Notes: a model not told the origin generated them from the letters alone. Positions 2,226-19,931 are shown, counted from the stretch's first letter. The stretch: 21,385 nucleotides of DNA from a virus (IMGVR_UViG_3300020578_000495:1-21385); one strand, 5' to 3'. Program-made: numbers and translations.

Positions 2226-2786
2226 ATGGGAATAATCGCTGGCATTGACTATAGTTTGAATGGGCCTGCAATATGTGTAGCAAACACCGAGAAGGAGTTT
2301 TGCTTCAAGAATTGCACATTTTATTTCTTGACTGATGTTAAGAAGAATGCCACGGTGTTTTTGAATAACATATACGGAGAGAACTTCTCTGAATATGATC
2401 AGGACTGCGAAAGATATGACACTATTTCAGAATGGGTTATGCGAATTTGTATGGGTTGCGAGCAGGTTGCACTTGAAGGTTATGCTTATAATGCACAGGG
2501 TAGGGTTTTTCACATTGCTGAGAACACTGGCATTCTGAAATATAAGTTATGGCAAAACTCTATTCCATTAGAAATAGTTCAACCCTCACATGTAAAGAAG
2601 ATGGCAACCGGAAAGGGAAATTCAGACAAAGAAGGAATGTATGAATCCTTTGTCAAGGAGACATTCATCTCATTGAAGGATATAATGACTCCAAATAGAA
2701 CTGGAGTGGTTAATCCAGTATCTGATATAGTTGATGCTTTTTATATTTGTAAGATTCTGTACTACTCTATGAAAGAATCAAATTAA
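2226..2786 (+). CDS. RuvC-family Holliday junction resolvase-like nuclease
   Basis: A 186-residue protein with the RuvC/RNase H-fold layout. The first strand GIDYSLNGP carries Asp8, VALEGYAYNAQG carries Glu84, GKGNSDKE (129-136) resembles the lysine-containing loop, and SDIVDAFYI carries Asp167 and Asp170. Together these supply the acidic metal-binding set of RuvC-like resolvases. Phage resolvases clear branched DNA before packaging, the job done in T4 by the unrelated gp49, which fits late expression. The start is fixed because Asp8 lies close to it and no later Met would keep it. There is no ribosome site; the ATG is five bases after a late octamer. The stop overlaps the stop of the convergent next gene. 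Confidence 0.85.
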   Translation: MGIIAGIDYSLNGPAICVANTEKEFCFKNCTFYFLTDVKKNATVFLNNIYGENFSEYDQDCERYDTISEWVMRICMGCEQVALEGYAYNAQGRVFHIAENTGILKYKLWQNSIPLEIVQPSHVKKMATGKGNSDKEGMYESFVKETFISLKDIMTPNRTGVVNPVSDIVDAFYICKILYYSMKESN

Positions 2787-3193
2787 GGTCTTACCCCGGC
2801 TCCACCAGCTGCACCCCTGGCCCCTTGTTTAACCATATCTCTTGCCTGCTGTTGTGCTTTGGCTCCATGTGCTCCGCTAAGAGCATTTGAATCATCGATA
2901 GTTATTGATCCGGTTGTTGTCTTATTTCCTTGTTGTTTATGAAATGTTTTTGTTTTTACATTAGTTGATTTTGGAGTAGTTGTCATTCCCCCAGGACCTT
3001 CATCATCTAAATCTCCCCCGCCCTGAACTACTTTAGTTCCAGTTGGAACGCCACTAGATTGTGACGATTTTCCACATCCACCGATTCCACACGATGCCAA
3101 GGCAAGAGCAGCAACTGCTCCTACTTTACCGGCTTTTCTAAAAAAAGATTCATCAATATTTTGCTCGTACAGATATTGTTTGAAAGTTTTCAT
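2783..3193 (-). CDS. Small Gly-rich protein with capsid-targeting-like N terminus and lipobox-like cysteines
   Basis: A 136-residue unknown. It begins MKTFKQYLYE, which looks like the capsid-targeting sequence of T4 internal proteins with a possible cut after LYE (8-10). A hydrophobic stretch, VGAVAALALASCGIGGCG (about 24-41), follows and resembles a lipoprotein signal with lipobox cysteine, although a true signal peptide would not start this far in. The rest is low complexity, rich in Gly, Thr, Ser and Lys, without a recognisable fold. The start overlaps the upstream stop as ATGA, so translation is probably coupled to the preceding lipoprotein gene. It could be an ejected peptide, a lipoprotein, or both if cleavage exposes the hydrophobic segment. 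Confidence 0.65.
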   Translation of the reverse strand: MKTFKQYLYEQNIDESFFRKAGKVGAVAALALASCGIGGCGKSSQSSGVPTGTKVVQGGGDLDDEGPGGMTTTPKSTNVKTKTFHKQQGNKTTTGSITIDDSNALSGAHGAKAQQQARDMVKQGARGAAGGAGVRP

Positions 3194-3507
3194 TGTGGCT
3201 TATTATCTTCAGTAAGTAGTTTTTTCTTATCTTCATCTTCGTCACAGTCATCTGGTTCTTTCTTGAGGAAGAACTCTTTGATGCCCCAGGCGACAACGAG
3301 GAAGAGAACCGGCGCATACCACCATAACCATGAGTTATCTTTGCGTACTTCTTTTCCTTGTTCAATCTTGGATTTGATATCCATCATGATAACCGAGTCA
3401 GCAGTATTATCTGGGACAATTTCTGGTGCAACGGATTGACAACTAGCAAAGGCTATCAAAACAGAAATAGAAAGAATAGCAATGAACATTTTCCATATTT
3501 TCTTCAT
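3190..3507 (-). CDS. Small lipoprotein with an internal membrane segment; possible unimolecular-spanin-like protein
   Basis: A 105-residue protein. A charged start (MKKIWK), a hydrophobic core and FASC at 20-23 make a plausible lipoprotein signal with Cys23 as the lipidated residue. A second hydrophobic segment (about 60-81, starting WLWWYAPVLFLVVAW) is followed by a strongly acidic tail (EPDDCDEDED). Lipoprotein signal plus a C-terminal membrane segment is the layout of u-spanins such as T1 gp11, which fuse inner and outer membranes at lysis, but the periplasmic part here is short (under 40 residues). It overlaps both neighbours by ATGA, and the upstream gene encodes another membrane protein, so a lysis or membrane-associated cassette is possible. 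No sequence homology to a known spanin is claimed. Confidence 0.7.
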   Translation of the reverse strand: MKKIWKMFIAILSISVLIAFASCQSVAPEIVPDNTADSVIMMDIKSKIEQGKEVRKDNSWLWWYAPVLFLVVAWGIKEFFLKKEPDDCDEDEDKKKLLTEDNKPQ

Positions 3508-3941
3508 GACTTCCTCCCTGCGGCGGCAGTGCCGAAGTAGAATCCAACAATAGACACAAGAATTTGTCTATTCTCTGATGTATAGAGGAATCCATTCACC
3601 TCTACGAAGAATTTCTTGGTTGTCTCTGGAACTAGTCCAAACATAGCTTCTGGTGATACCGTATCAACTTCAACCAAGGTAGGTACACCAAAGAATGGTA
3701 GAATGAACGGAGCAGCAATTGTTCCAAAGAGGACAGTTAGAACGATCAACTGACGAACACTAGCACCAATGTCGAGTGGTACTCTCAGTGCTGCCTTGTC
3801 TTGATTTTCGGTTGTTTGTTTGTTTGCGGTGATTAACCGTTCAAACATTTCTTTTTGGTCTTGGCTCTTTTGGGCCATGTACTTGAACACGAATCCAGTT
3901 AAGCTTCCACCCACTAATGAAATTAATTCTGTAGGAATCAT
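3504..3941 (-). CDS. Small membrane protein, possibly holin-like
   Basis: The chosen start is the ATG at 3941, five bases after a strong GGAGG. The frame extends to an ATG at 3953, but that start would place the GGAGG inside the gene. The 145-residue product has a short N-terminal hydrophobic or amphipathic stretch (about 5-22), a charged, Gln-rich probable coiled segment (23-50), a long membrane segment (about 62-86, TVLFGTIAAPFILPF) and a last one (about 126-141). I do not recognise a named family. Size, membrane topology and coupling to the lipoprotein gene behind it (ATGA overlap) suggest a membrane role such as holin, but that is inference. Confidence 0.7.
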   Translation of the reverse strand: MIPTELISLVGGSLTGFVFKYMAQKSQDQKEMFERLITANKQTTENQDKAALRVPLDIGASVRQLIVLTVLFGTIAAPFILPFFGVPTLVEVDTVSPEAMFGLVPETTKKFFVEVNGFLYTSENRQILVSIVGFYFGTAAAGRKS

Positions 3942-3966
3942 AAAAACCTCCAAATATATTTAGGAA

Positions 3967-5637
3967 TTAGTAACTTTCTAATCCTAGTATTTTTCTTCCT
4001 ATTTTAAAATGCCGTTTTTTCTTCTTCCTTGTTAGTTTGTTTTTAGCAGGGACTGCGATATCACCATTAAAATTACCCTCAGAATCATACCCCAATCCTT
4101 GAACCCCCCCCGAACCAACCGAATTTGCAACCATACCATATTCAAACAGAAGATGACCGTATTTTTCTATAAATTCGTTTACCTTCTTTTTCTTGAACTT
4201 ATCCTTTTGTGCCACATTTGCGGCAGTAAATGTAGTAGGGACAAATTTTATCGGAAGTAATCCAGGAAGTTCTGAAACAAACCCTTCATGACCGTGACCT
4301 CTTGCTGGTTGCATAGGCAATTGCCCGGTCCTGGTCAGGTGTCCGAATATAACATCTCTTGCTGAATCAACTGCATTGTGAGCGTCGAATAGGTGCTGTA
4401 GGGTTTTTTCTCTACCCCTGAACGCTTCAAGGTGTCCCTGAAGTCGTCTTGCTTGTTTTCCTAACTTACCTTCTAATGCTTTTTGTATTCTTGCCGTTGT
4501 AAAATCTCTATAACCTTGGACTGTTCTAGCATGTTCGCCTCTTTGAACGGCATTTGAGAACATTGTCATATGTCCGGCACGAGTTGCGGCTTTATCTTTT
4601 GTAGTAGGATCCGTATGCGCTGCAATTTCATCGGATAACGCCTGCACATTCTCTCTCTTTAACTTTTTATTCGCTTTGGAGATATGACCTCTTAGTAGTC
4701 TTCTTTCCCTGAGGCCTAGTTTTGGTACGTTATTAAGAGAAAGAGATGGAAAGTGTCGCTCTGCTGTGTTTAAAAAGGAGACATCAGGAACTGCTTCTAG
4801 TCTTTTACCTGTCTGTGAGTCGAATCTACCGTGGACTGCTAGTATAGTTTTGGTGGTCTTCTTTGGACGTTTATAGTGAATCAGATTTCCTTTGAGTGTT
4901 CCTTCCCCCGAATCATGTATGAAATCTGCTTGATATGCAGTATCTGAATCTATTTTATCGTGGCCTGCTACCTCAAGTGCAGTAATGAAAGGTGTAACAA
5001 TGTGAGGTTTATCTTCTCTTGCTGCATTTTCTTTTACTTCTTCTGGTGAATAGAATCTCGTTGCGCCCCGTCCTTTGTAACTAACAAAAGGTCTACCACC
5101 AGACTTTCCAAATACAAGTGATATACTTCCATCTGCTTTGTACGAGAGGTTGTGTCCCTTTCTTCCTTTGCCAGTTAATGCTTCGTAAGTTGCTTTTAGG
5201 TGCTCAACCGTATGATGACCCCCTCCGTGATAAATGAATTCACCTACATGGGGAAGATGTCCAATTGACTCAAACTCTGCTGTTTCTTTTAAATAATTCT
5301 TTATTTGTTCTGAAAGCATTTCTTTGTTTCCTCCGTACATATTTACAGACTCTTCTGCCAATAGATCTATTGCAGTAACTAAATTATTCATATATGCTTT
5401 TATTTTTGGACTACATGATGTGTTTATCAAAAATTTAAGTCTTATGATTAGTTTATCGTATGGTGAAATGTATTTATCAGGATCTTTTAAAAAATTACCC
5501 TTTTCGTCTATTACTCCACTTCTATACGCTGCCATATCTTTAAATGGAGTTGTTATTGATTTTATAAATTTATATAATGAAAATGCATTTACTATTTGAC
5601 CTAAACTTGAAGAATTTGTTTTTCTTTGATAATTCAT
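3967..5637 (-). CDS. Fusion of a conserved marine-phage domain with a ligase-like nucleotidyltransferase domain
   Basis: A 556-residue protein with two parts. Residues about 20-96 (KSITTPFKDMAAY, GVIDEKGNFLKDP, ending AIDLLAEE) resemble a short protein I recall as standalone in T4-like marine phages. Residues about 130-480 look like a polynucleotide ligase/nucleotidyltransferase core: K167-A-D169-G170 as motif I with the candidate AMP-linked lysine, SYKGRG after it, E451-G-F-V as motif IV and LPIKFV (K464) as motif V. Between the parts is EQIKNYLKET (110-119), similar to the capsid-targeting tags of neighbouring genes. The C terminus is Lys/Arg-rich. It may join or cap nucleic acid ends, or the fold may be inactive. 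The start overlaps the upstream gene as ATGA. A run of eight G lies near codon 509. Confidence 0.75.
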   Translation of the reverse strand: MNYQRKTNSSSLGQIVNAFSLYKFIKSITTPFKDMAAYRSGVIDEKGNFLKDPDKYISPYDKLIIRLKFLINTSCSPKIKAYMNNLVTAIDLLAEESVNMYGGNKEMLSEQIKNYLKETAEFESIGHLPHVGEFIYHGGGHHTVEHLKATYEALTGKGRKGHNLSYKADGSISLVFGKSGGRPFVSYKGRGATRFYSPEEVKENAAREDKPHIVTPFITALEVAGHDKIDSDTAYQADFIHDSGEGTLKGNLIHYKRPKKTTKTILAVHGRFDSQTGKRLEAVPDVSFLNTAERHFPSLSLNNVPKLGLRERRLLRGHISKANKKLKRENVQALSDEIAAHTDPTTKDKAATRAGHMTMFSNAVQRGEHARTVQGYRDFTTARIQKALEGKLGKQARRLQGHLEAFRGREKTLQHLFDAHNAVDSARDVIFGHLTRTGQLPMQPARGHGHEGFVSELPGLLPIKFVPTTFTAANVAQKDKFKKKKVNEFIEKYGHLLFEYGMVANSVGSGGVQGLGYDSEGNFNGDIAVPAKNKLTRKKKKRHFKIGRKILGLESY

Positions 5638-6011
5638 TTTAGATCTTTTAATATTTTATCTATTCTATGATCTGTTCTTAGACTTTGAACGTCTACTTCT
5701 GGTATAGAATATGGTATGTAATTTAAGTAGAGTAAAAAAGATTTTAATAATGAGTGCAACTCTATATTTATTTTATAAAAGAGTATTCTACAACATGCCT
5801 CTGCACCAAATATGTTTTGCAAAGTTATTATATGATTTAATATCAATCTTTCTTTGAGTTCTCCACCTTTTTTAAATCTTAATAGTAATCTTTTGATATA
5901 TTTTATTTTATCTAAGTCTTCATAAAATTCATCTATGCCCAAGCAAGATGGATTATTGTACATCTTGCTGGCATATAATAAAAAAGTATCAGGACTTATT
6001 TTTTGTTTCAT
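5634..6011 (-). CDS. Small conserved protein of T4-like marine phages, function unknown
   Basis: A 125-residue protein of mostly helical character with the pattern YNNPSC...DEFYEDLDKIKYIKRLL...GELKERLILNHII...FGAEACCRILFYKI. I recall this pattern from unnamed proteins in T4-like cyanophages and other marine myoviruses, where it sits beside the short domain now found at the N terminus of the next gene. That conserved neighbourhood supports both calls. The gene starts by TAATG overlap with the upstream stop and ends by ATGA overlap with the next start, so the three genes are probably translated together. No enzyme motif or membrane segment is visible, and unlike its neighbours it has no capsid-targeting-like N terminus. 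Confidence 0.8.
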   Translation of the reverse strand: MKQKISPDTFLLYASKMYNNPSCLGIDEFYEDLDKIKYIKRLLLRFKKGGELKERLILNHIITLQNIFGAEACCRILFYKINIELHSLLKSFLLYLNYIPYSIPEVDVQSLRTDHRIDKILKDLK

Positions 6012-7558
6012 TACTTAGCAATTGGTTGTCTATCGTTCTTTGATCCCTTTTTCTTCATTTTGTGAGATTTAGCAAATCTACTAAAGTTTCTTACCAAATC
6101 GTTGACAACTCTATCTTTTTCCGTTTTGGTTAGAGTTGTTTTTGCTTTTCTCATTGCAGAATTCACAACATAATAAAGTTCTCTTTGGATTTGATCTAGC
6201 TTTAGTTGACCTTTATTTTTCTTTTGCAAGAGATGATTAAAAATTGGCATTAAAACTCTATCTCTAATTTCACCTTTTCTGTTTATCAAATGCATTATTG
6301 ATCTTGCTCTATCTTTATTTCCTTTTGATTGTTTTTTTGCAGTATGTTTATCTAATTTACCTTCAAATATTGGTAATTGTTTAAATCTCATAGGATCACC
6401 AACCACAGTTTCACTTGATGGCATGGAAGCAGACATTGGTCCGGCCGAAGAAGCTCCTCCGTCACTACAACCATATTCACACATTTTCTTCACTTTTTTC
6501 TTCTTTGAATATGCTTCTCTAAGTTTCTTTGCTAAACTGTGAAGTTTTGAAGATCCAGATCGGTTGGTTTCAGTAGAGTGTGCTTCACCTTTATGTGCTT
6601 TTGCTTTTCTATGAATGTTTTCTGAATCCTTTTTTTTATTTACTAAAGATTCTATTAGAAGTTTTTCTTCCGCTAATTGTTGATTTCTTATCTGTGCCGC
6701 GGATTGAGTGACTGGTTCTTTTTCAGAAACTTTGGTGAGAATATCACCAGTTGTTTTCTTTAATCCTTCAATTTCTTTTGGTAGATTGAATTTTTCTTTG
6801 TCTTTTTTACCTTCAGTTTTTCCTTTTGCAATTGCATCTGCTGCTTTATCTCCTGCTTGAACAGTTGCACTGCCCCCGCCTTCTCCTGCTTTTTCTGTAG
6901 CACTTCCAGATCCAGGCATCGGCGGCATCATTCCTTTAATTTGATCTGTCGCGGCGCTCACTTCTCCTGCTACTTTTGCACCTTGTTTTGCAACATCCAC
7001 GATTTTGCCAAGCATACCTTCGGATAATTTTTCTTTTTCTTTTCTTCTTGCTTCAACTCTTCTTCCTATATTTTCATTGACTGGACCAGATGGATTGCCT
7101 AATTTAATTTTACCCTTTAGCATCCACATACAAGAGTCTTCATCATATGAGCAAAGAATTTCTAACACACCCTTTGCAAGATCTTCTCCTCTATCAAATC
7201 CTTTTGATAAATCTGTGGTGGGAGTCTGACCAAATACATCACCGTAATGTTTAATTGGGAATGCATTGATGCCTGGGTTTAGTTTTACTCTATTTCCATC
7301 AAATTGGAAATCAATTCCAACATGATTGAGTCTGCTTCTTAGTTCCTTGATTGCGGCATTTGGATCTACATAAGAACCACCAAGAAATCTATGAATGAAG
7401 GCGTTGATTCTGGCCATAGAATCGCCTTGATCTATTCTAAATACACCGAAATCGTTTTCCGCACTTCTGGCTGGATTTCCCATGAATCCATTAAATACGG
7501 ATCCGCCTTCGGTATAATCTTCTAACAGTTCTTTATAGAGTTGCTTAAATTTCTTCAT
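6011..7558 (-). CDS. Large late protein with capsid-targeting-like N terminus and repeated (L/I)xE cleavage-like motifs
   Basis: A 515-residue unknown starting MKKFKQLYKELLED, with a possible cut after LLE (11-13). Residues about 20-155 (MARINAFIHRFLGG, DPNAAIKELRSRL, GIDFQFDG) resemble an N-terminal domain I recall from T4-like marine phage proteins of unknown role. The rest is Lys, Ala and Gly rich: a Pro/Gly/Met linker (209-236), helical stretches, a CEYGCSDGG segment (360-368) and a basic C-terminal domain (about 400-505). LSE|G (178-180), LIE|S (301-303), LRE|A (346-348) and IFE|G (397-399) match the T4 prohead protease consensus. It has its own late octamer and a good ribosome site (AGGAGA), and heads the unit reading to 2783. 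Likely a processed internal or head protein. Confidence 0.85.
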   Translation of the reverse strand: MKKFKQLYKELLEDYTEGGSVFNGFMGNPARSAENDFGVFRIDQGDSMARINAFIHRFLGGSYVDPNAAIKELRSRLNHVGIDFQFDGNRVKLNPGINAFPIKHYGDVFGQTPTTDLSKGFDRGEDLAKGVLEILCSYDEDSCMWMLKGKIKLGNPSGPVNENIGRRVEARRKEKEKLSEGMLGKIVDVAKQGAKVAGEVSAATDQIKGMMPPMPGSGSATEKAGEGGGSATVQAGDKAADAIAKGKTEGKKDKEKFNLPKEIEGLKKTTGDILTKVSEKEPVTQSAAQIRNQQLAEEKLLIESLVNKKKDSENIHRKAKAHKGEAHSTETNRSGSSKLHSLAKKLREAYSKKKKVKKMCEYGCSDGGASSAGPMSASMPSSETVVGDPMRFKQLPIFEGKLDKHTAKKQSKGNKDRARSIMHLINRKGEIRDRVLMPIFNHLLQKKNKGQLKLDQIQRELYYVVNSAMRKAKTTLTKTEKDRVVNDLVRNFSRFAKSHKMKKKGSKNDRQPIAK

Positions 7559-7586: not shown

Positions 7587-9347
7587 TTATTTCTTTGCTT
7601 TTTTATTCTTCTTTACACCGCCGCGAGCTCTTAGGGTAATATATGTGGCAATACGGTGTCTCGACTCGTCGTCGGTGTCGCCTTTGATTGGTTGTGGTTT
7701 GATGCCTTTTGCTTTCTCGTCTCTTGTTCTAATCTCTGCTCTAGTCATTGATCCCTTGTTTTTCTTATTGACTACTTCTTCTTGAACAAGGAATTGTTTC
7801 TCGTAGTCGCAGACATCACATGTTGGATTGTATGACTCACAACGGCATCCCCAGACTCTGAGTGCAGCATTGATCTTGCTCTTTGGATCTCTTGCAGTCT
7901 TTGCACTGGTTCTTCTTCTCTTCATTCCACACATACGAGAGCAGAACGACTTTCTTCTCTTCTGAGTCTTTCCTGAGAGTTTGCCGAATCCACCCTTCTT
8001 TTGTGCTTCTCGTTTAGTTTCAATACCGGCATGAATACCTTGTCTTCTTGCCTCGGAACGAGAGAGTCCGCCTTCAGGGTGATTCTTTCCCTTCACGAAT
8101 CCTTTGTATGGTTTCTTTGCTTCTTCTAGTCTTCGTTTGTCCTTTTCAGTATCACTTTCTTTATTTACTTGGAGATCTTCTCCTAATCCAACTGCTAGTT
8201 TTATTTTTCGAATTAATCCTTTTAAACCAGTTGGTGGATGAGCAATATCTTGTAGAGCTTGTAATACACTTACACCTTTGGGCAAAGGAAACATTTTCTC
8301 GTCTCGGTTGTCTCTTATAATAGGAGGATCTGTTTCTGGATTGTGGCGTCTATATCCTCCTTTGCCTACATTAATTGCATAATCATAAATAAAATTCTCA
8401 TTCAAATCTTCTTCTGCATCGCTAGACATATAATCAGCAACAGTGTCAATACCATCAGTTGCCTTTGTTATCTTCGATTGAACCCATGCAGGAAGTTGTT
8501 GATTCTTTCCTTTTATTTTGTTTCTTAGTCTCTTTATTGCGTGTTGGATTGTGTCAAGTTGATTTGCTGCCATTTCACCTTCGTCGTCAATTTCATTTCC
8601 TTTTTGTATTGCTATATGATTCTCTGGCAGAAGTTTTTTCATTTGATTTGCATAAAAGTAATTTACAGATTCACTTATAGGAGATGCTTCATCCTTTGGA
8701 TCATATACTTTAATTAAAGAGGTGCCGTCTCTACTTTTTGATAATCGCTTTAAGTCGTTTGGTGATTTAGCAAAAATTGGAAGAGGTTGTCCGGTTGCTG
8801 GATCTGTTTCTTGTCCTTTAATATATTTCTTAATCTTTGGATCAAATATTGCAAACTCTTCATGTACTTTCTTTTTATGCTTCTTTTTAGTTTTCCAACC
8901 ACCGCCCCTCTTCTTATACCATTTAGCGGCCCAACCATTGGCGTAGGCTGATGGATATACATCAAACTTCGATCTTGCAAGTGCTTTTGCCTTTGACCAT
9001 AATTCTGGATTTGTTGGTACATTCTTTTCTGTTAAGTATTCCATCGCCTCTGATATCCTTCCCTTTCCAAAGTTAGAAACATTTACTGGTTTGCCACCTT
9101 TACCCGCACGATCCGCCACGGGATCATGTTTTCTTTTTGCCTTTACAGCCGCAGCCCTTCGTTTTTTGCTGAGTTGCTTTCTTTTCTTGTTCGACATGCA
9201 TTTTGGTTTGGGTTCTGAACTTGATCCTCTCGCGCATGGTCCTATTGCCTCCCCTTTTGAATTAATTCTTTTCCATCCACCATCCGGGTGTTTTGGATTG
9301 AACCAATTTCTTAAATCTTCGTTCATTAATTTATTTAAATCCTTCAT
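7587..9347 (-). CDS. Basic multidomain late protein with domain-boundary cleavage-like motifs
   Basis: A 586-residue, strongly basic protein that joins three segments I recall as separate small domains in marine phages. Residues about 10-95 run from NWFNPKHPDGGWKRI through GPCARG to KRKHDPVADRAGKG. Residues about 108-155 (NPELWSKAKALARSKFDVYP, then ANGWAAKWYKKRGGGW) resemble the domain often annotated DUF5872. Residues about 412-503 (KGKNHPEGGLSRSEARR, RRKSFCSRMCGMKRR, SAKTARDP, ALRVWGCRC) form a Cys/Lys-rich module. ISE|A (98-100) and LEE|A (407-409) lie just before the second and third segments, and ISE|S is at 224-226. The N terminus, MKDLNKLMNEDL, is tag-like. CDVCDYEKQF (510-519) adds a Cys pair. 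The start overlaps the upstream stop as ATGA. A nucleic-acid-binding polyprotein packed in the head is the favoured guess. Confidence 0.85.
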   Translation of the reverse strand: MKDLNKLMNEDLRNWFNPKHPDGGWKRINSKGEAIGPCARGSSSEPKPKCMSNKKRKQLSKKRRAAAVKAKRKHDPVADRAGKGGKPVNVSNFGKGRISEAMEYLTEKNVPTNPELWSKAKALARSKFDVYPSAYANGWAAKWYKKRGGGWKTKKKHKKKVHEEFAIFDPKIKKYIKGQETDPATGQPLPIFAKSPNDLKRLSKSRDGTSLIKVYDPKDEASPISESVNYFYANQMKKLLPENHIAIQKGNEIDDEGEMAANQLDTIQHAIKRLRNKIKGKNQQLPAWVQSKITKATDGIDTVADYMSSDAEEDLNENFIYDYAINVGKGGYRRHNPETDPPIIRDNRDEKMFPLPKGVSVLQALQDIAHPPTGLKGLIRKIKLAVGLGEDLQVNKESDTEKDKRRLEEAKKPYKGFVKGKNHPEGGLSRSEARRQGIHAGIETKREAQKKGGFGKLSGKTQKRRKSFCSRMCGMKRRRTSAKTARDPKSKINAALRVWGCRCESYNPTCDVCDYEKQFLVQEEVVNKKNKGSMTRAEIRTRDEKAKGIKPQPIKGDTDDESRHRIATYITLRARGGVKKNKKAKK

Positions 9348-9975: not shown

Positions 9976-12600
9976 TTACCTCTTGGATCTATTGTGAGAC
10001 TTGCTGGTAACTCTTAGATTTTTAACACTATTATCTTTTGGGTTGCCATTCTTGTGATCCACATCTTTACCGTCCCCGTAGCTTACTCTTCCCATCTTCT
10101 TGAGAAGTCTTCTTGCTTTATTTCGACTGGATCGTTTTTCAATCTGATCTGATCGTCCTTGGTAATTGTCATATTCTTTTCTGTAGTTTCTTTTTTCTAA
10201 TAAGAATCTTTTAGCAAGGGAAATATATCTTTGTTCTATTATATTTTTTTCAACTGGTATCTCGTATTGTTTGTCACCTATTACAATTGTGTTATAGAAT
10301 CCAGATTCCAATTTACCAAAAGTAGTAAAATCAATGTCGCCAGTTGCAAATTCATCTGGTTCAATTTCTAGAAATTGCATCAAGGAGTAAATGTCTCCTC
10401 CAATTTGATTTTCTAGTTGATCTAATGTTTCAGATACTTCTCTATTTGTAGATTGATCTTCTTTTATTAGAGTATTCAAAAATGCATTGTGTGTGAATAT
10501 TTCTTTAATCAATTTCTTTGGATTTAATACCATTGATATTACACTCCAATATGAATATAATTTTCTACCAGTTTTCTTCTCGAAAGCAATCCCTTCTGTT
10601 GATTTAACAGAACTGCTCTTGAAGCGAATTACAAAGTTCAAAGCATCTGCAACTTTATCTGCATATTCCGGTGTTATTTGTGTTAGAGATGTTTCAGTTC
10701 CATCTCTGTTCATTGAAAGTATATATTGTGCAACCGCCGGACTTATTTTCTTTGGATTTCCTGTATCGAATTTTGCAGCTCCGGTGAGTGCTTCAAATAC
10801 AAATCCTTTTCTAAATTCTTTACTCTCCGATAATAGATCCTCCAGATCCTTCTTTGCTTCTTTATGCAGTTTATCAAACATCAATATATCTTTATCTTTA
10901 CCTTTAAGTTCTCCTTTTAGATAATCAGATATATCACCGCCCTTAGTTCTTCTTGGATCATTTACTAAGTTTTTTAATGCTTTGATTAGTTTTTGAACTT
11001 TCTTTTGAACTTTAGGTTCTAGATCTCTTTTATCCATTCCTTCAAGAGCAGTATATACAGTAGCAGTTGCTTCGCCTCCTGCCTTACCTGACATTAACTG
11101 AGAAGGTCCACACTTGACAGAAACACCAACGATTTGTCCAGTATTAGTGTCTCGGAAAAGTATATCAGATTTTGGAGTATTATCCACTCCACCATAACCA
11201 GTCCAAAATTTACTTAATTTTTCTGTTTTTGTTGCACCATAATGAATTGCAACAAAATTTGAACCAGGATGCTTTACTGAAAGTTGTTCGGATATTGCTT
11301 GTAGTGTTCTATTTGCAGAGTCACCAAGTGTCGTACTTGTTTCTATAAACTTTGCTGCCTCTGGGGTTATGAGTTTATCTTTTACTTGTTTTTGTAAAGG
11401 TATGCCCATCGCAGCATTAAACGCAGCAACAATACCAGATTCCATATCACCCGCAGCATGATCGTCGTCTGGAAATCTAGATTTAGATCCAGTTACTCTT
11501 GGAACTTTTGTAGGAGGTGCCTGCGGCACATCCTTTTTTGTTTTTTTCTTACTAGATTTTGTTTTACTTTTGGTTTTTTCTTTTCCTGATTCTTTTTTAG
11601 TTCCACCAGTTTTTTCGTTTGCTGTTGGTTTTCCCTGTATTTTTCCAAAAAGAGTAATAGATGATTTAGTTTGAACAAATTTCTTTTCTTTTGTTGCTGC
11701 TTGTGCAGCACCCATAGTCATTTTATCACTACTAACTTTAAGAATGTGGGAGGCATCATCGAAGTTTGATTTTCGTATAATCATTACTTCATCGTTTTTA
11801 CTTTTAACTATACAGTATTGACGCATATCGCCGCCCTGTGCTTTTGCATCATCTCGGGCTCTTTGATTTCTTTTTCTTGTGTTATTTCCTGTTTTTGTTT
11901 CTACTCTTGTTTTTCTTTCTGCTTCTGTGATCAGAGAATTAATAACAAACGACAAAGGACCAAAGTATAAACTCTCTTTGAGTTTCTTCTTCGCTTTCTT
12001 TGCGACTTTCTTCTTTGGTGTCTCTTTCATACCAGAGGCAACATCACTAAAAAGTTCTCTGGCGTGTTCTTCCGAAACATGTGCAGGAAGACCTCTTCTG
12101 AATCCGGCAAAGTCTCCAGCAGAAACAAATGCTCTTTGCTTTGTACCAGAAACACCAGCTAGACCTTTGGCATCGTCACTTCTTGCTTCACCGGCAGTTG
12201 AACCTGTAAGTTTCTTTATTCCGAGTTTACCAACACCTGGCAATTCACCAGCTGCAACATACTCTTGCATCTTTTTAAATATGCCTTCATCTGATCTGTC
12301 TGAACCAAGAACCATGTGAACTCTATCGTAACCTTGTTGACTTAGATGATGAAGCATCTCAAATGGATTTTTAGCACCCTCACCAACATGAACTCTAGGG
12401 GTTCCTAGAACTCTTCCCATGTGCTTCGCTTTTTGTTCTGGAGTAAGCGGATTCTTTTTAGGATCGGCACTCATGCTGCCAAAGATCATATGATCTGCTC
12501 CCATTTCCCCTGCTTGCCGCATTACTTCTTGTGCCAATAGATGATGTCCCGCAGTGGGTGGGTTAAATCTACCAAAAGTTACAACTATGCTTTTTGCCAT
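9976..12600 (-). CDS. Three-enzyme fusion: NMNAT-like nucleotidylyltransferase, PD-(D/E)XK-like nuclease, HNH-like nuclease
   Basis: An 874-residue protein. Residues 1-185 are a cytidylyltransferase-like domain: VTFGRFNPPTAGHH with TxGH at 16-19, and VSGTKQR (150-156) in place of ISxTxxR, as in NMN adenylyltransferase-like enzymes. A Lys-rich linker then meets LKE|S (207-209) and ITE|A (224-226). Residues about 380-600 resemble a restriction-type nuclease: TPKSDILF (Asp479), VGVSVKCG (Lys496), then QLMSGKAGGE. Residues about 817-874 are HNH-like: KDVDHKNGNPKDNSVKNLRV, then SKSHNRS, with the pair Asp848-His849. Marine phages often carry the first and last domains as separate genes. The gene has its own late octamer and an AGGAA ribosome site. 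The order suggests a processed polyprotein, but activity of any domain is unproven. Confidence 0.85.
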   Translation of the reverse strand: MAKSIVVTFGRFNPPTAGHHLLAQEVMRQAGEMGADHMIFGSMSADPKKNPLTPEQKAKHMGRVLGTPRVHVGEGAKNPFEMLHHLSQQGYDRVHMVLGSDRSDEGIFKKMQEYVAAGELPGVGKLGIKKLTGSTAGEARSDDAKGLAGVSGTKQRAFVSAGDFAGFRRGLPAHVSEEHARELFSDVASGMKETPKKKVAKKAKKKLKESLYFGPLSFVINSLITEAERKTRVETKTGNNTRKRNQRARDDAKAQGGDMRQYCIVKSKNDEVMIIRKSNFDDASHILKVSSDKMTMGAAQAATKEKKFVQTKSSITLFGKIQGKPTANEKTGGTKKESGKEKTKSKTKSSKKKTKKDVPQAPPTKVPRVTGSKSRFPDDDHAAGDMESGIVAAFNAAMGIPLQKQVKDKLITPEAAKFIETSTTLGDSANRTLQAISEQLSVKHPGSNFVAIHYGATKTEKLSKFWTGYGGVDNTPKSDILFRDTNTGQIVGVSVKCGPSQLMSGKAGGEATATVYTALEGMDKRDLEPKVQKKVQKLIKALKNLVNDPRRTKGGDISDYLKGELKGKDKDILMFDKLHKEAKKDLEDLLSESKEFRKGFVFEALTGAAKFDTGNPKKISPAVAQYILSMNRDGTETSLTQITPEYADKVADALNFVIRFKSSSVKSTEGIAFEKKTGRKLYSYWSVISMVLNPKKLIKEIFTHNAFLNTLIKEDQSTNREVSETLDQLENQIGGDIYSLMQFLEIEPDEFATGDIDFTTFGKLESGFYNTIVIGDKQYEIPVEKNIIEQRYISLAKRFLLEKRNYRKEYDNYQGRSDQIEKRSSRNKARRLLKKMGRVSYGDGKDVDHKNGNPKDNSVKNLRVTSKSHNRSKR

Positions 12601-12678: not shown

Positions 12679-13077
12679 TTAGACTTCTTGTATAGGTTCG
12701 TCTTTTATATCGGAATCTAAACGAATTATTTTGATTCCGTATAGTTCTTCTGCCACAAATGTGTACCCTTTGTATTGTTTTCTTTTCCCACTTATAACTT
12801 CGTACATAGCAGATCTATTTAAATCGTTTTCCTTACAGTATTCAGTAAAGTGAGATATTTTGATCTCTTTGTTGTCTTTGGAAAAGACCCAAGACTTTCT
12901 TGGTATTTCTTGTTTTTTGTTTTCTTCCCACTTCCAATACCTACCCTCTTTCACGAACTTACCACCGTGGGAATCTATGAATAGTTTTCTCCAAATGTTT
13001 GATCTAGAATCATCATTACATGCAGTCCATGTAAGAGAATTTCTTCTATTCACTTCCTCAAGTCGTAGTCGCTTCAT
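12679..13077 (-). CDS. NUMOD-like DNA-binding protein
   Basis: A 132-residue protein. Residues about 64-107 (SKDNKEIKISHFTEYCKEN, LNRSAMYEVISGKRKQYKGY) match the NUMOD/IENR-type helix-turn-helix that gives homing endonucleases their DNA contacts: a short strand, a Phe/Tyr-Cys helix, then SAMxxVxSGKRKxxKG. No nuclease domain (HNH or GIY-YIG) is present. The N-terminal half is charged and unrecognised (RYWKWEENKKQEIPRKSW). It could be a relic of a homing endonuclease or a free-standing regulator. The start lies inside the end of the upstream nuclease gene (20-base overlap), after a good GAGGAAT ribosome site. A late octamer 66 bases upstream may add a promoter. It is the last gene before the terminator. 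Confidence 0.75.
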   Translation of the reverse strand: MKRLRLEEVNRRNSLTWTACNDDSRSNIWRKLFIDSHGGKFVKEGRYWKWEENKKQEIPRKSWVFSKDNKEIKISHFTEYCKENDLNRSAMYEVISGKRKQYKGYTFVAEELYGIKIIRLDSDIKDEPIQEV

Positions 13078-13753
13078 TTTTATTCCTCATATTTCTAATA
13101 TAATCAAAGTATGTGTCTATGGCTTCTTTTAATCTTCCAACATTATTTATAACTTTGTCTTCAAAAACTTGACAGATTCCTTCTTCAGATGCCAATAATA
13201 TCTTGATGTCGGGTACTTTTATTCCTGTCATTTCTTGAAACATCATGGAGTATGCACTAGCCTGTAAGAAATAATTCTCGATCTCATTTCTTTTCTTGTT
13301 TCTGGTACTACCTTTAAAGTCTATTACTGCTAGTTTTCCTTCATGTATAGCAATACAATCTACTCTACCAGCAAGTTGAAGTGTTTTGCTGTAAAGAGGA
13401 GATTCAAGGCAATAAATGTTAGTTATTTTATCCACTTCTGGTTTTATAGTATGAAATAGATCTCGTTCTATATCTCTTAATTCAGACAGATCTACTCTCT
13501 CGTTAAGAAGATATTTCTCCACAACAGAGTGAAGACTAGTTCCGCGTGAGCATACTCTTTTTGATTCTGTTGGATTGTTTCTTCGCCACTCGGCAAAGAA
13601 TGATCGCTTTTCAAACCCAGTAACCGTGGTAACAGAAGGATATACTCTACCATCTGGTGTTTGGTAGAATCTTTCCCCCGCAACTTCAAGTCTTTCTAAA
13701 TTTGGAAGTTCAAGATCGGTTTTTACATGATGAAAATTACCAACTACGATCAT
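13058..13753 (-). CDS. RecB/Cas4-like PD-(D/E)XK exonuclease
   Basis: A 231-residue single-domain nuclease. The motifs of the RecB-type family appear in order: GTSLHSVVEKYL (His75), GRVD (Asp132), VIDFKGS (Asp145, Lys147) and QASAY (Gln164, Tyr168). These build the two-metal site and the QxxxY motif shared by Cas4, AddB and mitochondrial MGME1 nucleases. T4-like marine phages often carry such a gene, probably for DNA degradation or recombination end processing. The start overlaps the upstream stop as TAATG with only a weak ribosome site, so translation is likely coupled. There is no capsid-targeting-like N terminus. The 3' end overlaps the NUMOD-like gene by 20 bases. Confidence 0.88.
   Translation of the reverse strand: MIVVGNFHHVKTDLELPNLERLEVAGERFYQTPDGRVYPSVTTVTGFEKRSFFAEWRRNNPTESKRVCSRGTSLHSVVEKYLLNERVDLSELRDIERDLFHTIKPEVDKITNIYCLESPLYSKTLQLAGRVDCIAIHEGKLAVIDFKGSTRNKKRNEIENYFLQASAYSMMFQEMTGIKVPDIKILLASEEGICQVFEDKVINNVGRLKEAIDTYFDYIRNMRNKNEATTT
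13144..13151 (-). promoter_or_regulatory. Possible internal late promoter octamer TATAAATA
   Basis: An exact octamer on the minus strand inside the nuclease gene, 66 bases before the ATG of the NUMOD-like gene. It could give that gene extra late expression, or be chance in AT-rich coding sequence. Confidence 0.4.
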
Positions 13754-14110: not shown

Positions 14111-15007
14111 TTAGTGATCTCCGTAGTTAATTTTTCTTGCTCTGATATTTATATTGGGAAATTCTCTTGACAATCCTGAAACATGCTCAACATTCGATCC
14201 AGCATCATCTACAAACATTAAATGATCATGATCATTTTGTCTCAGTATTTCTCTTAAGTAATCGGCTTTTGCTTTTGATTCTGATGTTCCAAGTCCAACA
14301 ACTTTAACACCATCGTGATGTAATCCTTGTTGTTTTAGATAATCTATTATTGCAGGTTCTGCTTCTTTACTCCTCGCAGTTAAAACCATAAAATTTCTTC
14401 CTGCTCTTTTCATATTTCTCAGAATTTTATGAATTGGTTTTATGCGTTGTGGGTTTGTCACCCTGTTAAATTCAGAAAAATCCATTCTTTCATGTGGCTC
14501 TGGTTTATATGTAGCAAATCCTGATGAAGAAATATGTTTCCATGATCCAGTTCTATTATCAATTACTTTAACTCGTGAATCATTACTTTTTGCAATTGTA
14601 TCATCAAAATCAAAGACGTATAAAGGATTTCTAAATCTTGATTTTCTTGCTTCTTCTAATCTTCTTCTTGCATTTCCTATTTTTACAGAAAATGGAATAG
14701 AAGCAGATTCCCTATTCTTGTCAACCAATCCTTGAACATCTCTACTTGGGGGTATAACTCTCTGTTGTCTAAGGCTTTGAATTGTATCTGCATAATTATC
14801 TTCAAAATTATACTTCATTTTCTTGTGAGGTAATGCTTCTGAATAAATTATATTAATCTTTTCTCTTTCTTTGACTGTTGATCCAGGGGTTCTACCAGAA
14901 CCAATTAAAGCAGCAGTAAGAGCACTGACAGTTCCAAAATTACCAAACCATCCCTTTGCTTCAAATAAGTTATTTGATATAAATTGTTTGAAACTTAACC
15001 TTTCCAT
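14111..15007 (-). CDS. HAD-family phosphatase with capsid-targeting-like N terminus
   Basis: A 298-residue protein. Residues about 127-298 form a HAD hydrolase domain: YVFDFDDTIAKS with DxDxT at 133-137 (nucleophile Asp133), VLTAR (208-212) as motif II, KAKAD (245-249) as motif III region and LMFVDDAGSN (Asp267, Asp268) as motif IV. The layout resembles phosphatase domains such as the 3'-phosphatase half of T4 polynucleotide kinase, but no kinase domain is present and the substrate is unknown. The N terminus, LSFKQFISNNLFEAKG, matches a T4 internal-protein tag with LFE|A at 14-17. LEE|A at 117-120 sits just before the HAD domain and could free it. It overlaps the upstream gene by 13 bases and has an AGGAAG ribosome site. 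Confidence 0.88.
   Translation of the reverse strand: MERLSFKQFISNNLFEAKGWFGNFGTVSALTAALIGSGRTPGSTVKEREKINIIYSEALPHKKMKYNFEDNYADTIQSLRQQRVIPPSRDVQGLVDKNRESASIPFSVKIGNARRRLEEARKSRFRNPLYVFDFDDTIAKSNDSRVKVIDNRTGSWKHISSSGFATYKPEPHERMDFSEFNRVTNPQRIKPIHKILRNMKRAGRNFMVLTARSKEAEPAIIDYLKQQGLHHDGVKVVGLGTSESKAKADYLREILRQNDHDHLMFVDDAGSNVEHVSGLSREFPNINIRARKINYGDH
14146..14153 (-). promoter_or_regulatory. Possible late promoter octamer TATAAATA inside the HAD gene
   Basis: An exact octamer on the minus strand, 36 bases before the ATG at 14109 and so within the last codons of the HAD gene. Its distance and orientation fit a late promoter for the next three genes. Confidence 0.5.
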
Positions 15008-15297: not shown

Positions 15298-15298
15298 T

Positions 15299-16101: not shown

Positions 16102-16107
16102 TTTTCC

Positions 16108-16743
16108 TCATTTCTTAGTAAGACTATTTATTAAAGATTGAATTCTTGGTGTTATTTTTTTACTTTGGAGGGTATATGAATGCATTCCATCTACACCCTC
16201 AGATGATGAAACTCTGTAACCCTTTGATATTTCATCTACTAATTTTCTAAAAAATGCTCTGTTTCCTTTTACTTTAAAGTTTATAGTGTCTGGAGATAAT
16301 GCCTTTATGTGGTGTCTCATGGAAGGTATCACACTATTAAGTATTTCCAGTGATGCTGGTTTGTCTCCCAGATTAATCTCTACTTTACTACTTGTCAATG
16401 ATCCTTTTTTCATTTTAGATTTTTGAGACATTCCATGTTTAATGTCCATCACTACATTTTCTTTGTCTGTTTTTATTGTGTATTGATGGGAACCGGCCTC
16501 TTTGTTTGCTGAATATTTTTCTGTCTTTTTATCAAAGGCTGTTGGTTTAAATCTATAAGTTGTTGGTAACTCTGCGGAACTAATTTTTCCCCTGTGTTTA
16601 CCTTTGTCTGCATTTACTTTCATATCTTCTATTGTTTTACCCTTCAGTGGAGATTTTTTACTTTTTAATGGTATATCCTTTCCGATAATGCCATCGAATC
16701 TCTGTTTGATTTCTGTTAGAAGTTGTTGCTTTATATCATTCAT
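16108..16743 (-). CDS. Basic unknown protein, tag-like N terminus
   Basis: The start chosen is the ATG at 16743, giving 211 residues that begin MNDIKQQLLTEIKQRF; LTE (9-11) recalls the tag-type cut site of the neighbouring genes. An ATG at 16767 would add eight residues and overlap the upstream gene by 32 rather than 8 bases. The ribosome site is weak for either. The protein is Lys-rich, with a disordered basic region (about 25-60) and a later alpha/beta stretch (about 130-200: SLEILNSVIPSMRHHI, INFKVKGNRAFFRKLVDEI, YTLQSKKI) that looks like a small folded domain. I do not recognise it. Coupled translation after the metalloprotease gene is likely. Confidence 0.7.
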   Translation of the reverse strand: MNDIKQQLLTEIKQRFDGIIGKDIPLKSKKSPLKGKTIEDMKVNADKGKHRGKISSAELPTTYRFKPTAFDKKTEKYSANKEAGSHQYTIKTDKENVVMDIKHGMSQKSKMKKGSLTSSKVEINLGDKPASLEILNSVIPSMRHHIKALSPDTINFKVKGNRAFFRKLVDEISKGYRVSSSEGVDGMHSYTLQSKKITPRIQSLINSLTKK

Positions 16744-17212
16744 AGAATCCAGGCACCTGTTCTCCATATGTTCTAATCATTCTTCCTGCTACCGCATTCG
16801 CTTCATCTTCGTGTGGTGATCCAGTTGAACCATCAAGATCGTCTGGGTTTTCTATTTCTTCGTGTTGCTTTTGGTGTACCATTTCATGTGCAATGCTTCT
16901 GCAAATATCAAAGCAGGCTCTACCCTTTGAGTATATTTTCATATTGCCATCTTTGATGTTATAATATGCAGTTGTCATGTTTGGTTCTCTAGTAGTCAAA
17001 AGAGTTACATCTGGTCTTCTACTGAGTCCAAGGTAGTTAGTGGCAAAGTCAACAAAGTCTGAAACTTTGTTCTCTAACTCTACCTGTTCATTGATATACT
17101 CTTTGAACTCTTTGAGTTTTCGTTTCTTACGACCTTGACAATGTGCCTTTTGGGAGAATCCCTTTGGGTTGTCGCAATCTATTGATTTTTTGTATTTCTT
17201 TGACCAGCTCAT
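16736..17212 (-). CDS. Zinc metalloprotease with internal capsid-targeting-like segment
   Basis: A 158-residue protein in three parts. Residues 1-30 (KKYKKSIDCDNPKGFSQKAH, CQGRKK) form a small Cys/His-bearing basic module that I recall at the start of many marine phage proteins. Residues 33-42 (LKEFKEYINE) match the capsid-targeting-like tags of this window, so a cut after INE (40-42) would remove the module. The rest is a minimal protease: RSIAHEMVHQKQHEE gives HExxH at 109-113, and HEDEANAVAGRM offers Glu135 or Glu137 as third zinc ligand, a gluzincin or SprT/ImmA-like layout. The start overlaps the upstream stop as ATGA. If packed and ejected, it would act on host proteins early; the target is unknown. 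Confidence 0.85.
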   Translation of the reverse strand: MSWSKKYKKSIDCDNPKGFSQKAHCQGRKKRKLKEFKEYINEQVELENKVSDFVDFATNYLGLSRRPDVTLLTTREPNMTTAYYNIKDGNMKIYSKGRACFDICRSIAHEMVHQKQHEEIENPDDLDGSTGSPHEDEANAVAGRMIRTYGEQVPGFYE

Positions 17213-17571
17213 TTCTTGTGATGCTTAAACCATTCTATCTGCCGAAGTCTCTTGACTGCTTTCTTTTTACTCTTAAACTTGCCAAGAGGTTTTCCCTTCT
17301 TGCTGACAATCTGGTATTCGCTTCCCTTTCTTAAAATATATTCGTATAGGTATTCATATATAGAATCCTCAGAAGACTCGTCCATCTTCTTATTCATAGA
17401 GCATTGACGACCGTTTTGACACCTTTCGCACCGACAACGATTGATAGGTCTACCACTTCTGGTTTGTTTTTTGGAGTCTACCTTCTTGAATTTTGCTTTT
17501 TTCCGAATCCTGTCTGCATGTTTCCCTTTTTCTTCAAAAATCTTGCCGATCAGAGAGTTAAAATCTTTCAT
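17209..17571 (-). CDS. Small Cys-cluster basic protein with capsid-targeting-like N terminus
   Basis: A 120-residue protein. The N terminus, MKDFNSLIGKIFEEKG, resembles a T4 internal-protein tag (IFE at 11-13). Residues 42-58 (PINRCRCERCQNGRQCS) hold Cys46, 48, 51 and 57, a probable zinc site. The C terminus (about 84-118, YQIVSKKGKPLGKF, KKKAVKRLRQIEWFKHHK) matches a short domain I recall in phage proteins, with the pattern GKxLGxF...AxKRLRQIExFK. EYLYEYILRKGS (73-84) joins the two parts. The gene has a clear ribosome site (AAGGAGAA) and a late octamer 29 bases upstream, and heads the unit ending at the 12632 terminator. Nucleic-acid binding in the host after ejection is plausible but unproven. 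Confidence 0.8.
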   Translation of the reverse strand: MKDFNSLIGKIFEEKGKHADRIRKKAKFKKVDSKKQTRSGRPINRCRCERCQNGRQCSMNKKMDESSEDSIYEYLYEYILRKGSEYQIVSKKGKPLGKFKSKKKAVKRLRQIEWFKHHKK

Positions 17572-17600
17572 AGGATTCTCCTTATTAAGTTGTATAATAT

Positions 17601-17608
17601 TATTTATA
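17601..17608 (-). promoter_or_regulatory. T4-type late promoter octamer TATAAATA for the 17571-12679 unit
   Basis: An exact octamer on the minus strand, 29 bases before the ATG at 17571, with an AAGGAGAA ribosome site between them. It shares four bases with a plus-strand octamer. Confidence 0.75.
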
Positions 17609-17612
17609 CATA
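17605..17612 (+). promoter_or_regulatory. Late promoter-like octamer TATACATA for the 17638 gene
   Basis: One mismatch to TATAAATA, on the plus strand and overlapping the divergent minus-strand octamer. Transcription would begin near 17618, leaving a 20-base leader that contains the GAGGA ribosome site of the gene at 17638. Confidence 0.6.
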
Positions 17613-17637
17613 CATGTATGAAGAAACGAGGAAGAAT

Positions 17638-18256: not shown

Positions 18257-18260
18257 AATT

Positions 18261-19469
18261 TTACCTAGATGGCATAGGGAAGTAGTTCCCGCTGCGGGTG
18301 TATCGGCCGCCGAACCGTGGCGCGCGAGCAGCTGCTGAAGTTGCAATATTTAATACATTTTGTCTATCTCTGTTGAATTTGAGATAATCCAATCTACGTT
18401 TTGCATCAGAGATGGCATTACTTTGGTGTGATGCAGTTTCTATTGCTCCATATCGTATTCGATCTGCTTGTGTTGCACTTGTTGTAAATGGATCTATTCC
18501 TGCCTTTGTTTCAGGAAATGCAGTCCCTACACCTGGCTGTTGTCTTGCAAGTTTTTGCCATGATTTTGCATCTTTTCTACCATAATATCCCCTCCCGAAA
18601 ATAGAATAGTCTGGACCTTTATCTGGATCACCGCGAGTGGAACTAGCAGTATTAGTTTCTCCTTCTCTAGACGATTGACCTTTACCAAAAAGTAAATTAG
18701 TAACTGCATTACCTCTGTCACTAGCAGCATCTCTACCATACGGTCCTGCATCATGACTTTGCTGTAACATAGTTCTCAAGGATCTTGCATTATCTCCAAC
18801 CAGTGTTTCCTCTTGTTTTTTAGTTTCTAATTTTCCTGTTGTTGGATTGAATACTTGCACAGTACCAAGACCTTCACCAGATCTAGCTAAATATGCAGAT
18901 ACAGATGGTCCACCGCGAGCTAAGCTCGCTTTAGAAATAATAGAAGCTGATGCTGACCCGTATTTCAATCTATTTGAAGCTCTCATTGCCCTTTGATCTA
19001 TATTAAACTGACCTCTATTTGCAAGTGAATAGTATGCTGCAAATTTACCTAGTCCTTTTGCAGTTTGCCCTATTCCTCTAGCAACGTCTCCAATTTGTTG
19101 TTTTAATTCTGTTCCACTTTTTGGTATGAACGATGCTTTTGGTTGTTTTGATAATTCTCTTTCTATGGTTTCTTTATCACCCTCTGCTGCTTTTGCTAAA
19201 ACATCAGTGGTATCACCAAACCCCACGCGCGAAGCGTCTGGAATCGGATTTGTATTTATCCTTTCGTATCTTGAAATCTCTAATGCTCTCTCTCCACTAT
19301 CGCTTCTTGCTTCATCTGGGGTTCTGTCTAGTGTTTGTGCAGTTGGAGCGGTGCTCTGACCAGGCACCAATCTTTTGTTCGGATACCACGGACTGCTTAC
19401 GGCAGTGCTTTCTTTCAATTTTTGAAAAATGGATTTGGTTGATTTAATTCTATTAATTCTTTTGTCCAT
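18261..19469 (-). CDS. Large disordered Arg/Ser/Gly-rich protein with tag-like N terminus
   Basis: A 402-residue protein without a recognised domain. The N terminus, STKSIFQKLKESTAVSS, contains LKE|S at 18-21, matching the cleavage-like tags of other genes here. The body is rich in Arg, Ser, Gly, Thr and Asp with few hydrophobic clusters (GQTAKGLGKFAAYYSLANRG at 133-152 is the most ordered), no Cys and no membrane segment, and looks largely disordered. The last 25 residues (AAARAPRFGGRYTRSG) come from a markedly GC-rich patch unlike the rest. The ATG lies exactly five bases after TATACATA on this strand, without a ribosome site, so the message may be leaderless. Possibly a packaged DNA-binding or core protein. 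Confidence 0.75.
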   Translation of the reverse strand: MDKRINRIKSTKSIFQKLKESTAVSSPWYPNKRLVPGQSTAPTAQTLDRTPDEARSDSGERALEISRYERINTNPIPDASRVGFGDTTDVLAKAAEGDKETIERELSKQPKASFIPKSGTELKQQIGDVARGIGQTAKGLGKFAAYYSLANRGQFNIDQRAMRASNRLKYGSASASIISKASLARGGPSVSAYLARSGEGLGTVQVFNPTTGKLETKKQEETLVGDNARSLRTMLQQSHDAGPYGRDAASDRGNAVTNLLFGKGQSSREGETNTASSTRGDPDKGPDYSIFGRGYYGRKDAKSWQKLARQQPGVGTAFPETKAGIDPFTTSATQADRIRYGAIETASHQSNAISDAKRRLDYLKFNRDRQNVLNIATSAAARAPRFGGRYTRSGNYFPMPSR

Positions 19470-19474
19470 AACAT

Positions 19475-19482
19475 TATGTATA
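19475..19482 (-). promoter_or_regulatory. Late promoter-like octamer TATACATA, five bases before the 402-residue protein start
   Basis: On the minus strand the octamer TATACATA is followed by ATGTT and then the start codon. There is no ribosome site. It shares two bases with the divergent plus-strand octamer at 19481. Confidence 0.65.
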
Positions 19483-19488
19483 TAAATA
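19481..19488 (+). promoter_or_regulatory. T4-type late promoter octamer TATAAATA, five bases before the 19494 start
   Basis: An exact octamer followed by ATACC and the ATG at 19494, with no ribosome site. It is back-to-back with the minus-strand octamer, so one small site would serve two divergent genes. Confidence 0.7.
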
Positions 19489-19493
19489 ATACC

Positions 19494-19931
19494 ATGAAAT
19501 CATTCAAGCAACATTTACAAGAAATGAAAACTGGAAGTCCAGCATTGGACTTATTTGGTAGAGATCCAAAACCCGGAAGTGAATCAGACACCGCAATGGG
19601 AAGGATACACACCGAAGTGTTATTAGGCAAACTTGCTAGAGTGGGTGTTACTCCCGAATCAGAGCACCCACACCACATTGCAACCGCCGTAACTAAAGCA
19701 CAAAGTAGGATAATTACCGGAAATCATGAAAATGAAAATTTACGAAATGTAACTATACCTCACAGAATAAGAATGGCAGCAGACCTAGATCGTAACTTTA
19801 AAGATCACATTGCCGGAACGGCAGAAGGATTTGGAGTCATTTCAGACCTACACGACCGAGGAATAGACTCAACTCCCGCAAACATAGTGAGTAGATTTCC
19901 ACCACCACCGAGTAAGTACATAGAGTTTTAA
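19494..19931 (+). CDS. Small protein with clear capsid-targeting-like N terminus
   Basis: The start at 19494 is preferred over the in-frame ATG at 19476, because it gives MKSFKQHLQEMKTG, almost the same tag as MKTFKQYLYE of the gene at 3193, and because a late octamer ends five bases before it. A 145-residue product with a likely cut after LQE (8-10). The rest is polar (LDLFGRDPKPGSESDT, SEHPHHIATAVTKAQ, DHIAGTAEGFGVISDLHDRG) and ends FPPPPSKYIEF. No catalytic set is obvious, although the His-rich part (about 58-64) could bind metal. I do not recognise a family. Its TAA shares bases with the stop of the convergent metalloprotease gene. Confidence 0.75.
   Translation: MKSFKQHLQEMKTGSPALDLFGRDPKPGSESDTAMGRIHTEVLLGKLARVGVTPESEHPHHIATAVTKAQSRIITGNHENENLRNVTIPHRIRMAADLDRNFKDHIAGTAEGFGVISDLHDRGIDSTPANIVSRFPPPPSKYIEF

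Follow-up and report, generated by a model that had tools for sequence, protein, structure and literature searches.

Does a short peptide that recurs at the starts of neighbouring viral genes address their products to the phage head? The question comes from a 21,385-base virus fragment (the window, which is the whole record), in which a B12-type ribonucleotide reductase gene and a RuvC-like gene on the plus strand are followed by a long run of minus-strand genes; many of the block proteins are strongly basic (net charge up to +59). A preliminary description had listed eight genes with a near-identical tag at or near the N-terminus and proposed that it targets their products to the capsid. In our view the block is, with good probability, head cargo of a T4-type phage, with a tag like the T4 capsid-targeting sequence (CTS), cleavage by a gp21-type protease, polyproteins and delivery together with the genome.

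The block shares synteny with 83-105 kb of the closest related contig, G001, and with 105-131 kb of a second, G002. Because G002, G004 and G012 encode the T4 head genes gp17, gp20, gp21, gp22 and gp23, the window phage is itself T4-type. The closest isolates that share such a block are Methylophilales phage Melnitz (L127:12203-23656) and Pelagibacter phage HTVC008M (L137:8768-21427), both Kyanoviridae. Common to the two blocks are a cytidylyltransferase, a ligase-like protein and a HAD protein, and several of their proteins have (L/I)xE-type sites close to the N-terminus; the HTVC008M block also has a P-loop protein, and a HAD protein in it resembles 5' nucleotidases.

Being a fragment, the 21-kb window record holds neither a protease nor a capsid gene. 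An S77 prohead protease is present in 8 of the 12 related records searched, and in G002, G004 and G012 the gp21-type protease adjoins gp20, gp22 and gp23 homologues. G001 is without an S77 protease, but its contig starts near the terminase gene and the head cassette therefore probably lies beyond the contig end. The major capsid propeptides of G002, S-CREM2 and S-SZBM1 carry LTE/A (here and below, the slash marks the putative cut), a site of the same class as those of the cargo. We also noted in G002 an extra 228-residue protein (G002:C1:53222-53908, L092; start MNRNPKNLQEINKFEAWKRQQIINEIFRA) whose gene separates the gp21 and gp22 homologues; T4 has no gene at this place.

A T4-like tag and its carriers

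In T4 IPIII, targeting is mainly through residues 4 and 7 and processing through residues 8 and 10, with gp21 cutting after (L/I)xE (PMC9026906). IPII and IPIII start with MKTYQEFIAE and IPI with MKTFKEF, and the window tag, whose consensus is M-K-(S/T/K)-F-x-x-(F/Y/H/L)-(L/I)-x-E, fits this internal-protein capsid-targeting sequence in its bulky residues at positions 4 and 7 and its (L/I)xE cut site. All eight strings listed previously are found in the translations, although what they share is a common pattern rather than near-identity. The pattern is tied to position: in a non-redundant set of 1,901 proteins (window, relatives and reference phages) the core motif (F/Y/L)xx(F/Y/H/L)(I/L/M/F/V)xE occurs 33 times with its first residue at position 4, whereas each of 59 other offsets gives 0 to 6 matches, with a mean of about 2. 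The strict tag was not found in the HTVC008M parts and the third of S-RIM2 that were searched.

A first profile, built from the window tags and T4, proved too permissive to be informative, and the literature rule and a profile from other phages were used instead. This 9-residue profile, trained on 32 tags of other phages with the window and G001 excluded, was run over residues 1-45 of each of 25 window proteins, with 5,449 internal segments serving as the null. Six of the 25 reached p<=0.01 (binomial tail 1.5e-7). Genes 2783, 19494, 14111 and 16736 scored above all or nearly all null segments (p printed as 0.0000), gene 6011 followed at p=0.0026 for its segment KKFKQLYKELLE, and the sixth, 19928, which was outside the eight-gene list, is probably a chance match. 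Five of the eight listed carriers (2783, 6011, 14111, 16736, 19494) are thus firm; 17209 and 18261 are weak, and 7587 finds no support from the other-phage profile.

Gene 2783-3193 (136 residues) bears MKTFKQYLYE/Q at its N-terminus (3161..3193, minus strand; score 19.9) and a lipobox-like LASC further on, while gene 19494-19931 on the plus strand has MKSFKQHLQE/M (19494..19523; score 19.5), which in G001 reads MKSFKQHLLE. The ORF of the latter was called from 19476, but M7, the seventh codon (19494), is most likely the true start, as in G001 MKSFKQHLLEMRTGS. Both tags follow the T4 rule strictly, having bulky residues 4 and 7 and (L/I)xE at 8-10; in 6011 and 14111 the site is shifted, in 16736 the tag is displaced to residues 33-42, and 7587 departs from the rule. 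Gene 6011-7558 encodes a basic protein of 515 residues tagged MKKFKQLYKELLE/D (7520..7558, minus strand). Its homologues carry MKKFKELYKKLLE/D in G001, MKKFKQILSKLAE/S in G002 and MKNFKNHIAE/E in Melnitz, and the cut site reads LLE/D, LLE/D and LAE/S across three phages.

The clearest conservation footprint is that of the HAD-like phosphatase gene 14111-15007, whose tag MERLSFKQFISNNLFE/AKG (14960..15007, minus strand; profile match LSFKQFISN..LFE) corresponds to MERLTFKEFILE/AKG in G001. Where G001 has LTFKEFILE/AKG the window has LSFKQFISNNLFE/AKG, with an insertion of four residues, and the (L/I)xE/AKG junction is kept across this indel. Pfam, PHROG and NCBIfam agree on a HAD-like protein, which also matches polynucleotide-kinase PHROG 415; tblastn against phage records gave no match. 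In gene 16736-17212, a metalloprotease-like gene with HEMVH and a weak Pfam Peptidase_M78 hit, LKEFKEYINE/Q (17087..17116, minus strand) occupies residues 33-42 behind a 31-residue module, and the G002 homologue begins at the tag itself (MKKFKQHLRE/A). That module (17119-17212, minus strand; MSWSKKYKKSIDCDNPKGFSQKAHCQGRKKR) is also present in several cyanophages, where it is separate from the remaining protein and stretches of about 28-50 residues are 64-93% identical.

Two further genes have possible tags. Gene 17209-17571 (120 residues, net charge +23) starts with MKDFNSLIGKIFE/E (17533..17571, minus strand), a segment with a late cut site that is identical in G001 and loosely matched by MNSYEEYLDN in G002; the rigid profile does not score it as significant (p=0.27), since the E sits three residues further along than that profile expects. 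Gene 18261-19469 has KSIFQKLKE/S at residues 12-20 (19410..19436, minus strand) with a marginal p=0.02, and no homologue was found in G001-G004. We dropped MKDLNKLMNE (9318..9347, minus strand) of gene 7587-9347 (586 residues, basic), as it scores p=0.53 and is absent from the homologues in G001 and G002, which are untagged and about 60 residues longer at the N-terminus.

Could the tag simply be a general N-terminal helix, or a translation-start preference of AT-rich phages, on proteins that act in the producing cell? AT-rich genomes often encode lysine and phenylalanine close to protein starts, and several block proteins are wholly without a tag. The motif, however, demands an ordered F-x-x-F/Y-L/I-x-E, is absent in its strict form from SPO1 and HMO-2011 (206 called genes), is predictive of virion detection in S-CREM2 and has its cut site repeated at domain junctions far from starts (see below), and to our minds such an explanation is very unlikely.

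Two minus-strand genes beside gene 2783 (window 3190-3953) deserve mention: gene 3190 seems to encode a small lipoprotein whose C-terminus holds a membrane segment, gene 3504 seems to encode a membrane protein, and both possibly have lysis functions. A separate untagged gene (13058-13753, minus strand) has homologues in Melnitz, S-CREM2 (gp196) and S-SZBM1 (78, annotated as a PD-(D/E)XK nuclease).

Tagged proteins in virions of other phages

The Synechococcus phage S-CREM2 has 52 virion proteins among 219 genes, and its authors caution that contaminants may be among those detected (PMC10665884). By the strict T4 rule 6 of the 219 genes qualify, where about 0.1 would be expected by chance, and five of these six were detected in virions as opposed to 47 of the 213 others (Fisher p=0.003). 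The five, three of which are annotated enzymes, are a SAM hydrolase (MKDFDSFLEE), gp13 (MKDLHSFLTE), an APH-like kinase (VKRFDAFLTE), gp136 (MQTFSMFFSE) and a cytidylyltransferase (MKNFSSFLTE). When a profile trained without S-CREM2 was restricted to non-structural genes, it flagged 12, of which 7 were detected, versus 21 of 182 others (p=0.0003); gp15 and a Cas9-annotated nuclease (LRFASFMAEA at residue 17) are flagged as well. Along one stretch, genes 6 and 12-15 combine detection with a tag or a tag-like segment, and genes 7-11 have neither. S-SZBM1 has a shallower proteome with 30 virion proteins listed (PMC9146016), and on this short list one of three clear tags appears, that of the cytidylyltransferase, while the strictly tagged 191 and 192 do not.

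Homologues of the window cytidylyltransferase are thus virion-detected in both S-CREM2 and S-SZBM1, each with the tag at its start, and a cytidylyltransferase was reported from S-SM1 virions (PMC3037559) and an NMNAT-like protein from those of S-SCSM1 (PMC9602691). The starts of this enzyme in six cyanophages read MKKFSAFLSEA, MKKFSAFLKEA, MKSFSQFLTET, MKKFSTFISEA, MKNFSSFLTEA and MRFRQFIIEA, and those of Syn9, P-SSM4, P-SSM2 and S-RIM14 are tagged. The S-PM2 cytidylyltransferase has no tag, and the enzyme was not detected in S-PM2 virions (PMC3037559).

Together with the gp21-type protease of the relatives, the S-CREM2 detections and the virion-borne cytidylyltransferase homologues lend support to the capsid targeting proposed for this locus, and we regard packaging of tagged proteins in the head as well supported. 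Cytidylyltransferase (NMNAT), SAM hydrolase and APH/ChoK kinases have repeatedly been detected by mass spectrometry in cyanophage virions, with their route of entry unexplained and contamination left possible by the authors. The first is a direct homologue of the window enzyme and the others are tagged counterparts. The tag very likely loads proteins into the head, which would explain why enzymes recur in purified particles of such phages.

Fused genes as candidate polyproteins

Beyond what had been described before, two large window proteins contain (L/I)xE junctions between their domains, and in relatives these domains are encoded separately with a tag at the start. In gene 3967-5637 the site LSEQIKNYLKE/TA (5284..5316, minus strand) lies at the boundary between a small N-terminal domain and an RNA-ligase-like domain. 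An (L/I)xE within 30 residues before the ligase domain is found in 14 of 15 homologues versus 16% of control windows, and one followed by A, S, T or G in 11 of 15 versus 0.8%; in several phages the same junction is the protein N-terminus (MRKLSSFLLE/S, MKFMDFITE/S). The domain behind it (3970..5283, minus strand) has KADG and HEGFVS motifs (alignment A1), with K, D and G of the KxDG motif I invariant in 12 sequences and HEGxVS (EGxV motif IV) nearly so. Its AlphaFold model is of fair confidence (pLDDT 75.8), and almost all Foldseek matches are ligases and capping enzymes with RNA ligases on top, although the best is weak (E 0.013) and TM scores are low. By motifs and modelled fold, this cargo is a putative RNA/DNA-ligase-like covalent nucleotidyltransferase; tblastn of gene 3967 against phage records gave no match.

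Gene 9976-12600 (minus strand, 874 residues; Pfam CTP_transf_like and HNH_3) joins an NMNAT-like cytidylyltransferase to a conserved TPK(S/T)D..SxK domain and an HNH motif, with LSFVINSLITE/A (11923..11955, minus strand) in the linker between the cytidylyltransferase and the next domain. Similar sites occur in most fused homologues, the second domain stands alone in Melnitz behind MQGFKTFLSE/A, and the first is alone and tagged in cyanophages. As the density of (L/I)xE in linkers of the homologues is only 1.5 times that within domains, the polyprotein case for this gene rests on site position and not on counts. A PD-(D/E)XK nuclease was considered for the middle domain, whose TPK(S/T)D..SxK resembles the motif, and was set aside after a fold search gave no structural match; a sequence search of solved structures with both domain alignments returned none either.

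That the junctions are plain flexible linkers rather than cut sites is a reading to which the shortness of (L/I)xE, its presence inside folded domains and the modest linker excess in gene 9976 homologues all lend some weight. The near-constant site before the ligase domain, above all where a small residue follows, and the occurrence of the same domains singly with N-terminal tags speak against it, and it seems rather unlikely to us. Similar cut sites between domains imply instead that one targeted chain may yield several head products, and on the simplest reading what is conserved is targeting and cutting, not the state of fusion.

Loading, delivery and related systems

How might such proteins reach the next host? 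We infer core binding, cleavage at (L/I)xE sites and ejection into the host, the first and last of these steps (the tag binding the core, the cargo leaving with the DNA) by analogy with T4. The short N-terminal tag would bind the prohead core and draw each protein in, so that the tagged chain becomes enclosed in the prohead. The gp21-type prohead protease would then cut after (L/I)xE, removing the tag and, inside the head, separating the joined domains of the 3967 and 9976 products. The mature and mostly basic protein would stay among the packaged DNA and enter the next host along with the genome. The cargo set would tentatively comprise a cytidylyltransferase, a ligase-like enzyme, a HAD phosphatase and a HExxH protein, a set that would suit a role in repairing nucleic-acid ends or in nucleotide chemistry as infection begins.

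Packaging and cutting could, on the other hand, serve head assembly or DNA condensation, with the proteins acting as core or structural components rather than host effectors. Many block proteins are basic and without catalytic annotation, and T4 IPIII influences head assembly (PMC9026906). Against this stand the enzyme-like tagged proteins - cytidylyltransferase, HAD phosphatase, ligase-like protein, SAM hydrolase and kinase - and we give a purely structural role appreciable weight while thinking it somewhat unlikely.

The tag system extends a known T4 mechanism, and the CTS has been proposed in a review by Black as a general protein-packaging route for T4-like phages. T4 IPI, IPII and IPIII likewise have an N-terminal peptide of the MKT(F/Y)xEF(I)xE type with an (L/I)xE cut site and are small basic proteins with otherwise unrelated bodies. 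In contrast, the tag described here is on large enzymes, cut sites recur between fused domains, the phages are aquatic and cleavage is predicted. The T4 ADP-ribosyltransferase Alt is a head-borne enzyme with an N-terminal LFDE propeptide, is cut by gp21 and acts early on the host, yet the enzymes here differ from it and no ADP-ribosyltransferase is among the annotated tagged proteins. In the giant phages phiKZ and SPN3US, too, many head proteins, ejection proteins included, are cut by a T4-type prohead protease, some at several sites, but as described in the literature their propeptides are not a short F-x-x-F/Y-L/I-x-E label. For such a label in cyanophages and related aquatic phages, on virion enzymes or at polyprotein junctions, we found no report in the open-licence papers searched.

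A label readable from sequence yields, for any T4-type genome, a prediction of the proteins that travel in the head and are the first to be delivered, and if the polyprotein reading is true, several enzymes are loaded by one label. Early-delivered T4 proteins counter host defence, IPI acting against GmrSD and IPIII being required for infecting strain ECOR17 (PMC9391042), and the label may therefore be a way to find anti-defence proteins in uncultured phages. Whether aquatic T4-type phages at large address an open-ended arsenal of early-acting enzymes to the head by one interchangeable code, with the arsenal made partly as protease-split polyproteins, with activities (nucleotide/NAD chemistry, nucleic-acid end repair, proteolysis) delivered ahead of phage gene expression, is in our estimate an evenly balanced question.

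Finally, a protein of a related contig (L018:287-1135, plus strand) has the tag MKTFKVYLEE/S, behind which come a Sec-signal-peptide-like stretch, a phage lysozyme domain and then LysM. Loss of the tag would uncover the signal peptide, as it would with the tag and LASC of window gene 2783, which hints at re-export after delivery.
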